From Pelagibacteraceae bacterium AG-345-F21 (GTDB lineage Bacteria; Pseudomonadota; Alphaproteobacteria; Pelagibacterales; Pelagibacteraceae), in the NCBI GenBank assembly GCA_003281795.1, contig QCAW01000002.1, forward strand, positions 1 through 64,000: a DNA stretch of 64,000 nt. The letters are read 5' to 3'. Made by a program: the position numbers and the translations under genes. The notes below the pieces were generated by a model. The model worked only from the letters and a program-made list of their open reading frames with translations, ran no database searches and had not been told where the DNA came from. The first letter of the stretch is position 1; every line of letters starts with the position of its first letter. Below, piece after piece: positions 23,867 to 62,931 of the stretch.

Positions 23867-24994
23867 ATGAATTCTCTAGGAATTAATAAATCTAATAAAA
23901 ACACCAAAGTAGTCGTTGCAATGTCTGGGGGAGTGGACTCATCAGTAGTAGCGGCACTAATGAAAAATGATGGTTATGATGTAACCGGGATTACTTTGAA
24001 GCTTTACGATGATACCAATTCATCTAATAAAGGAAGGCAATGTTGTGCTGGTCAAGACATTTTAGACGCTAAAAGAGTTTCCGAAAAACTTGATATTAAT
24101 CACAAAATTTTATTTTATCAAAAAAAATTTAAAACTGAGGTAATTGACTCGTTTATAGATAGTTATACAGCTGGGGAAACACCTATTCCATGTGTGCAAT
24201 GCAATCAAACTGTTAAATTTAGAGATTTATTTAAATTTGCAAAAGATCTAAATGCAGACGCACTAGTCACAGGACACTATGTATCTAGATTTAATAATAA
24301 TGGTCAAGCAAGTATGTATAGAGCAAAAGACCAGAATAGAGACCAAAGCTACTTTTTGTTCAGCACTTCGCAAGAGCAATTAAATTATCTTAGATTTCCA
24401 CTAGGTGAAATCGATAAATCGGAGACTAGATCTATCGCAAAAAATCTTGATTTAAATGTTGCTAGCAAACCAGATAGTCAAGATATATGCTTTGTGCCTA
24501 ATGGAGATTATAGTTCAGTAATTAAAAAATTTAGACCAGAGTCTTTCAAACCAGGAAAAATTTTAGATTTAAAAGGAAAACAAATAGGAGACCATGAAGG
24601 AATTATTAATTATACAATTGGTCAAAGAAAAGGAATAAAAATATCTAATAATCAACCTCTTTACGTTATTAATATTAACGCAGATAATAATACAATAATT
24701 GTTGGCTCTAAAGAGTGTTTAGAAATTAAAAAAATTTCTTTAAGAGATATAAATCTTTTAGGAAACAAAGAAGATTTTAAAAATTTTATTAGTATTAAAG
24801 TTAGGTCAACAGGTAAGCTGTTAAAAGCAAAAGTTTCTATTATCGATAAAAAAGCAGACGTTGAAATTTTGGATAAAGAAACAGGAATTTCACCAGGCCA
24901 AGCATGTGTTTTTTATACTAAAGATAAAGTTGGGGATAAAGTTTTGGGAGGTGGTTGGATTGATAAGACTTTTAATAATAATTTATCCACTTAA
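23867..24994 (+). CDS. mnmA: tRNA 2-thiouridine(34) synthase MnmA
   Basis: [44 protein letters not shown] motifs. Confidence 0.96.
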
Positions 24995-25068
24995 TTAACA
25001 GCTTAAATCAAGGCACGTATAAAGTGATTACATATTTTTTCAGTATATGTTTTAATCAAAATAATTAA

Positions 25069-25233
25069 GGGGCAACTCTTAACTGGCCATTTGGGGAAAA
25101 ACCGAGAGGTTCAAGCTCAAAGGGCAGAAAGGTGAACCTAGTAGCGCTAGAATAGTTCATCGGGACGGCTTGGCGGTAGCGCCTAAAACGACGAGCCAAA
25201 CTACTAAATTTCTGGGCGAAAGCCTAGAAATTT
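25069..25233 (+). ncRNA. Candidate structured non-coding RNA of unknown class (strand uncertain)
   Basis: Convergent intergenic gap with locally raised G+C and several helices: aggttca/tgaacct (25107-25113/25133-25139), agtag/ctact (25140-25144/25201-25205), ggct/agcc (25167-25170/25194-25197), ggcg-gtag-cgcc (25172-25183), and a 12-bp GAAA-capped hairpin aaatttctgggc-gaaa-gcctagaaattt (25206-25233). Confidence 0.65.
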
Positions 25234-25933
25234 ATGTGGTCTTCCTCCAAAAAAATCTAGATAACAAATAAAATACAATTACACCAACAAAATAATTCCA
25301 TTCCAACATATGTTTAAAATGTGTATTTCCTTTAGTGACTAGAGTAGGCAAACTGAGGATAGCAACTAATACTAATATACTAACTAAAATTAATTTCATA
25401 ATTAGTACTTTTCTATTAATAAATCTTTGTAGTTTGTTTTTGAGTTTAAAAAAATGATATACTAAATATCCTTGAGCGATAAGTTCAAAAATAATGAACA
25501 AAAGCAAAACAACTCGTCTAAATAATTTATAAACTTGTATGTCAAATTTAATTCCTAAAAAAATAGAGTGGATAACTAAAAATATTGCCGACAAAATTCC
25601 AAATGTTTTAAACTTATAATTAATTTGTGTAGAATATAATTTATTTATTAAATCGTTATTATTTTTCCAATACAGGTATAGGAGAAATCCGGTTATAAAC
25701 ATCGAAGGTTTAAAAACCAAATATTGAGGAAAAGCACGAGAAGCTCTACTTATTGATAAGCTACCATCTAAATAAGGAATTGAAAAATCAGATCTACCAA
25801 TCTGATCCACAGCAAAAATAGTTTTTTCTAAAAATTCAGGGTTCTGGGAAATTATTAAGCACAAATTAATTGCACAAAATGGAATAAAAAAAATCCACAA
25901 ACTCAATTTCCGAATTTGAGTTATTTCATTCAT
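25232..25933 (-). CDS. Hypothetical multi-pass membrane protein
   Basis: 233 aa, about six hydrophobic helices. Confidence 0.65.
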   Translation of the reverse strand: MNEITQIRKLSLWIFFIPFCAINLCLIISQNPEFLEKTIFAVDQIGRSDFSIPYLDGSLSISRASRAFPQYLVFKPSMFITGFLLYLYWKNNNDLINKLYSTQINYKFKTFGILSAIFLVIHSIFLGIKFDIQVYKLFRRVVLLLFIIFELIAQGYLVYHFFKLKNKLQRFINRKVLIMKLILVSILVLVAILSLPTLVTKGNTHFKHMLEWNYFVGVIVFYLLSRFFWRKTT

Positions 25934-28527: not shown

Positions 28528-28628
28528 TGTGAATAAGTCACCTCTAAGTTGTATTATGAGTCTAATTTGGAATCAAAAGTGAATCAAAACGTGAACATTT
28601 TAATTAATATAAAAAAGGGTGTGGATAA
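28528..28628. promoter_or_regulatory. Two DnaA-box-like 9-mers in a 188-bp AT-rich intergenic region
   Basis: tgtgaataa (28528-28536; reverse TTATTCACA) and tgtggataa (28620-28628; reverse TTATCCACA, consensus). Confidence 0.35.
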
Positions 28629-28707: not shown

Positions 28708-29379
28708 ATGTTTTCAAAAGAATTAGGAGAAAAATTAGATCAATATCACTTATTAAAGCACCCTTTTTATCAAATTTATTGGAATGAAGGTAAATTAAAT
28801 AGGGAAATCATAAAAGATTATGCTGAACAATATTATCAGCATGTAAAAGCATTTCCAAGATACATCAGTGCAACTCATTCGATTTGCGAAGACATTGAAA
28901 AAAGAAGAATACTTTTAGAAAATTTGCAAGATGAAGAAAATAAAGATGGCGACCATCCAAAGCTTTGGAAAAATTTTGCTAAAGCAATGGGTGCTGATGA
29001 AAAAGAAATTGAAAACGTAAAACAAGAATCTTTTACGAAAGAAATGATCAGCAATTTTTTTTCTCAAGCAAGAAAATCATATGCTGAGGGATTAGCGTCA
29101 TTATATACTTACGAAAGACAAATACCTGAAATAGCAGAAACAAAAATACAAGGCCTTAAAAAATTCTATGGAGTTAGCTCAAAAGAAGGTTTGGAATTTT
29201 TTGAAGCTCATAAATCTGCTGATGTAATCCATAGAGCTGAGTGTGAAAAATTGTTAGACGGTCTTTCTAAAGAAGAGCAAATAAAAGCAGAGAAAGCTTC
29301 TTTAACAACAGCTAAATTTCTTTGGAACTTTTTAAGTGGTATGACTGCTAAGCACAAATTAGAGCAAGTAGCAGCTTAA
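28708..29379 (+). CDS. CADD-family (TenA/PqqC-like) putative pABA/folate biosynthesis protein
   Basis: HPFYQIYWNEGKLNREIIKDYAEQYYQHVKAFPRYISATHSICEDIEKRRILLENLQDEENKDGDHPKLW is CADD-like; ATG 28708 follows AAAGGAG (track start 28549 is upstream non-coding). Confidence 0.85.
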   Translation: MFSKELGEKLDQYHLLKHPFYQIYWNEGKLNREIIKDYAEQYYQHVKAFPRYISATHSICEDIEKRRILLENLQDEENKDGDHPKLWKNFAKAMGADEKEIENVKQESFTKEMISNFFSQARKSYAEGLASLYTYERQIPEIAETKIQGLKKFYGVSSKEGLEFFEAHKSADVIHRAECEKLLDGLSKEEQIKAEKASLTTAKFLWNFLSGMTAKHKLEQVAA

Positions 29380-62854: not shown

Positions 62855-62931
62855 GGCGAGGTAGCTCAGTTGGTTAGAGCACAGGACTCATAAGCCTGGG
62901 GTCGGCGGTTCGAATCCGCCCCTCGCTACCA
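62855..62931 (+). tRNA. tRNA-Met (anticodon CAT)
   Basis: 77-nt cloverleaf GGCGAGG...GCTCAGTTGGTTAGAGC...CTCATAA...GGCGGTTCGAATCCGCC...CCTCGCTACCA; CCA encoded. CAT could also be tRNA-Ile2, but sequence resembles elongator Met. Confidence 0.93.

Follow-up and report, generated by a model that had tools for sequence, protein, structure and literature searches.

The window, i.e., the whole stretch of 64,000 nucleotides analysed here, contains a gap of 237 bp between the end of the mnmA open reading frame at position 24994, the identity of which was confirmed by Pfam, and the end of a convergent 233-aa open reading frame at position 25232. The GC content is 0.53 at positions 25100–25199 compared with 0.19–0.37 in the flanking coding sequence, and both the unusual length of the gap and its GC-richer right part had been pointed out correctly in a preliminary description of the locus. 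The region 25058–25233 folds with a predicted energy of −61.4 kcal/mol (z −5.16), and none of 200 shuffled sequences folded as well. When the whole window was searched with cmscan, two matches exceeded the gathering score: a tRNA gene at 62855–62928 on the forward strand and, within the gap, IMES-2 (RF02035) at 25058–25199 on the same strand (152.9 bits against a gathering score of 54.7, E = 5.3e-40, model positions 1–141 of 141). A permissive Rfam scan of the gap region returned no further credible match. It is virtually beyond doubt that this gap carries a single copy of IMES-2, a catalogued small structured RNA of marine bacteria. The preliminary description had proposed a structured RNA at this position and had named cmscan as a way of checking it; the RNA is real and well supported, by the RF02035 match as well as by strong covariation in its helices, but it was also thought to be novel, and a score this far over the gathering score places it in an already known family of orphan RNA. 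For the window, what emerges is a missing annotation of an orphan RNA, IMES-2 not being a housekeeping RNA.

IMES RNAs were reportedly described by Weinberg and colleagues in Nature in 2009, some of them as very abundant, and IMES-1 is said to have appeared in the same discovery paper as IMES-2. IMES-1 (RF02034) belongs to the same naming series but has a different model; it gave no match in 36 SAR11 genomes, where it was sought also as a substitute in those lacking IMES-2, and no control genome matched either. In the literature searched, no paper on IMES-2 function was found, and part of a survey of HTCC1062 intergenic regions describes motifs other than IMES-2 (PMC2704228). The copy in the window agrees with the IMES-2 motif in its full-length match, in having all helices, in being single and in its marine SAR11 host; it differs in a loop-loop helix that is absent from the Rfam structure line, and a promoter region and a 3′ hairpin are added here. 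The tmRNA, SRP RNA and RNase P RNA were rejected as candidates for the gap, as the genome carries them elsewhere (C1:24601, C3:40550, and C1:55811, respectively). A riboswitch or cis leader was rejected because the next gene is convergent both here and in the SNase/SRAP type of neighbourhood (see below), IMES-2 being located upstream of an MGMT-like gene only in the remaining type. Features of these four classes had not been recognised in the sequence beforehand either.

The IMES-2 core consists of four hairpins in series, all read on the forward strand. P1 (25065–25082) has 7 bp and a GCAA tetraloop, with 100% paired cells and 3 of the 7 pairs changed on both sides among relatives. P2 together with P2a (25083–25127) encloses a conserved purine-rich internal loop and ends in a GAGA tetraloop (9 of 15 pairs changed on both sides), P3 (25131–25161) has 8 bp, every one of them changed on both sides, and a 15-nt loop (98.5% paired), and P4 (25167–25197) has nine paired columns with one constant mismatch and a 13-nt loop (88.4% paired, three pairs changed on both sides). 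Over 42 distinct sequences the Rfam helices and the loop-loop helix together have 94.6% paired cells and 26/45 pairs changed on both sides. Controls with shuffled sequences or slid partners gave covariation far lower than the IMES-2 helices, and covariation in relatives, another check named in the preliminary description, is strong throughout P1–P4. Strong conservation is seen in the P2 internal loop and in the GNRA loops, which are GCAA in P1 and either GAGA or GCAA in P2a. The set of compatible helices previously read from the single sequence was partly right: a 7-bp stem, said to close a purine-rich loop, is present as P1, the loop that it closes being the GCAA tetraloop; a 5-bp stem closing the ggcg-gtag-cgcc domain is outer P4 as folded in the single sequence; and a 12-bp 3′ hairpin is exact at 25206–25233. 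The inner GGCG/CGCC hairpin of that domain did not hold up. It is preferred by the single-sequence minimum-energy fold, but it has no both-side changes in relatives, its covariation is no better than that of controls, and it competes with the covariation-supported loop-loop helix. A local hairpin inside the P3 loop was likewise rejected, with covariation no better than controls.

The loops of P3 and P4, both unpaired in the Rfam structure line, pair with each other as judged from covariation. The sequence GCGCTA in the P3 loop (25144–25149) is matched by TAGCGC in the P4 loop (25177–25182), both on the forward strand, with 96.8% paired cells and 3 of 6 pairs changed on both sides, and the covariation score of this helix was reached by none of 500 shuffles. 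Both-side changes occurred in two sequence groups, L062/L114 and L094/L125, and two diverged copies outside the alignment, L050/L051, keep the helix as AGCACU:AGUGCU. Pairing energies predicted for the four loop types as free strands are −7 to −10 kcal/mol. The P3 loop motif is self-complementary in most sequences, so that two IMES-2 molecules could also pair with each other; in the diverged copies, each loop is complementary to the other one but lacks self-complementarity, which favours P3–P4 pairing. The orphan bacterial RNAs GOLLD, ROOL, and OLE are joined by kissing loops and GNRA contacts (PMC12286853); IMES-2 resembles them in its kissing loops and GNRA loops, multimers of IMES-2 being a possibility only, whereas they are several times longer and form multimers.

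A conserved region upstream of the RNA is a predicted promoter and presumably drives IMES-2 transcription. At the −35 position lies AAAGTGAT (25021–25028, forward strand), containing the motif AGYGAT, which 89 of 99 loci have between −35 and −38; the adjoining C and A columns are conserved too. About 17 nt past this element the columns T.TGNTA are conserved, represented here by the −10-like element TATGTT (25046–25051, forward strand). Further upstream, a tandem DnaA-box-like element, TTATCCACT-TAATTAACA (24983–25000, forward strand), overlaps the last mnmA codons. A TTATC[CA][CAG]C box (TTATCCNC-type) is located upstream of IMES-2 in 80/99 distinct loci, in differing neighbourhoods and for the most part between −75 and −89, and was missing at 19 mnmA ends without adjoining IMES-2. 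The second half of the box is weak in this genome, and binding of DnaA is suggested by its resemblance to DnaA boxes. The preliminary description had set the limits of the element at 24995 and 25233; the promoter region begins outside these, at about 24983 within the end of mnmA. The upstream box is overlapped by the C-terminal tail of mnmA (24961–24994), and mnmA genes without adjoining IMES-2 mostly end earlier. As 19 such genes lack the box there, the tail NNNLST probably arrived together with the RNA gene. The upstream box was also considered as an element shared with other promoters, and this was rejected: with one mismatch allowed, four genomes gave a single occurrence beside IMES-2, and a reversed control pattern also gave one match. 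Two DnaA-box-like sites, TTATTCACA and TTATCCACA, are found elsewhere in the window (28536–28628, reverse strand), upstream of an open reading frame starting near 28708. A replication origin at the locus was rejected, the cumulative GC skew having no turn at 25 kb.

The probable 3′ end of the RNA is a hairpin at 25200–25240 on the forward strand (−23.0 kcal/mol). Its 12-bp, GAAA-capped core at 25206–25233 is as previously described, but the hairpin really extends over about 25200–25240 and overlaps the end of the convergent open reading frame. A hairpin of −19 to −26 kcal/mol was found 3′ of IMES-2 in all loci folded; a T run follows it in the MGMT type, in other genera, with none in this genus, and a terminator scan at this locus gave no match. 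The transcript would be about 186 nt, running roughly from 25058 to 25243.

The 106 IMES-2 loci compared fall into three neighbourhoods. In 27 loci, one of which is truncated by the end of its contig, IMES-2 follows mnmA and is followed in turn by the convergent 233-aa gene. In 76 loci it is flanked by a tyrosine recombinase and an MGMT-like gene; for some of these only one flank was seen, and one odd contig end is added to this type. In two loci, the neighbours are a preceding SNase gene and a convergent SRAP gene. The convergent protein of the window (25232–25933) is membrane-like, has no Pfam family in a Pfam search, and partners mnmA-IMES-2 in related genera too. As its own promoter region and 3′ hairpin accompany it in three unrelated neighbourhoods, IMES-2 is almost certainly a free-standing gene and not the leader of any one gene, and the preliminary description was right to regard it as an independent RNA that leads neither flanking gene. 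In the MGMT type (L017, 1642–1700, and other loci of genus g3), the MGMT start codon lies a few bases past the terminator-like hairpin and T run, and MGMT may depend there on read-through of the hairpin.

This SAR11 genome has one copy of IMES-2, as does each of the 38 carriers among 118 sampled genomes of the order, which belong to 4 of 10 genera. Matches in a class-wide sample of 387 genomes were confined to the window's own family. When named genomes were scanned with a conserved 18-mer, the records with the rest of the motif were Pelagibacteraceae or Pelagibacter/Pelagibacterales (SAR11); SAR116 and other non-SAR11 matches lacked it and were rejected. These absence calls use the Rfam model, which strongly diverged copies might escape, because our own covariance model R1 was too narrow and failed on G001, whose diverged copy is detected by the Rfam model. 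Genomes without IMES-2 retain the recombinase, and several retain MGMT, with other small open reading frames in between. The recombinase–MGMT interval (L189–L203, upstream of the recombinase) is a variable spot with differing small open reading frames across SAR11 genomes. On a recombinase tree, i.e., a tree of one gene with bootstrap values that are not fully settled, the IMES-2 presence label needs 12 changes, 4 of them forced by well-supported branches, and L193 (without IMES-2) and L017 (with IMES-2) are sisters. Since the neighbourhood is present without IMES-2 and the label changes among close relatives, IMES-2 is dispensable as judged from these comparisons, and the many related genomes without a match indicate that it is not a core function.

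The conserved positions of IMES-2 are those of structured loops and internal loops, and the RNA has no long unpaired strand. A protein-binding RNA is favoured for this reason, and we put the chance that IMES-2 acts in trans via a bound protein at about even. The gene would be read on the forward strand from its own predicted promoter just after mnmA. The product, about 186 nt long, would have a strong hairpin at its end, and the P3–P4 loop helix would fold the 3′ half of the RNA into a compact unit. This RNA would be part of a ribonucleoprotein, with the GNRA loops, the purine-rich internal loop and the kissing loops forming a shaped surface for protein, and would tune a cell process as 6S and other protein-binding RNAs do, not by mRNA pairing. 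The same conservation would also suit a ribozyme or a ligand-binding RNA. The main rival to a protein-bound RNA is a small RNA whose exposed loops would base-pair with target mRNAs and regulate them, perhaps with Hfq. IMES-2 is typical of such RNAs in its size, its own promoter region and its 3′ hairpin, which has a T run in most carriers, and its patchy presence agrees with this view; however, the would-be seed loops pair with each other and conservation is spread across structured elements, so that antisense action is possible but rather unlikely.

A substitute for 6S RNA as regulator of RNA polymerase is improbable. The Rfam 6S model (RF00013) had no match in 20 SAR11 genomes, this one included, nor in the gap region, while a Caulobacter control genome was positive, and 6S RNA resembles IMES-2 in length and in being a free-standing gene; it is, however, a long stem that closes both ends and has a central bubble, whereas IMES-2 has four hairpins in series, and many genomes lacking 6S also lack IMES-2. 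Equally improbable is a cis-acting leader that regulates the following gene through transcription past its 3′ hairpin: in the recombinase/MGMT neighbourhood, hairpin and T run stop just a few bases short of MGMT, but in the neighbourhood of the window and in that with SNase and SRAP the next gene is opposite in direction, which contradicts a general function of this kind and leaves a side effect on MGMT as possible. Least probable is a small mobile cassette, although presence is scattered over three sites with the upstream elements moving along, and the tyrosine recombinase adjoins IMES-2 in most carriers; against it stand the restriction to three sites in 106 loci, the single copy per genome, the persistence of the recombinase where IMES-2 is missing, and the lack of any match in 50,697 phage records. 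Returning to the protein-binding RNA, it is tempting to speculate that SAR11 cells lacking 6S use IMES-2 as a broad regulator, with its expression tied to replication via the upstream DnaA-like boxes and its complementary loops giving a folded or multimeric RNA-protein particle, but in this joint form the proposal would be a long shot.

The bacterial group with this orphan RNA is among the most abundant of the ocean. Added here are the loop-loop helix, the boundaries of the gene, with the promoter region on one side and the 3′ hairpin on the other, and pairs of closely related genomes of which one has the RNA and the other does not. The helix, the boundaries and close genomes that differ in IMES-2, e.g., G086 and G003, provide handles for its function.
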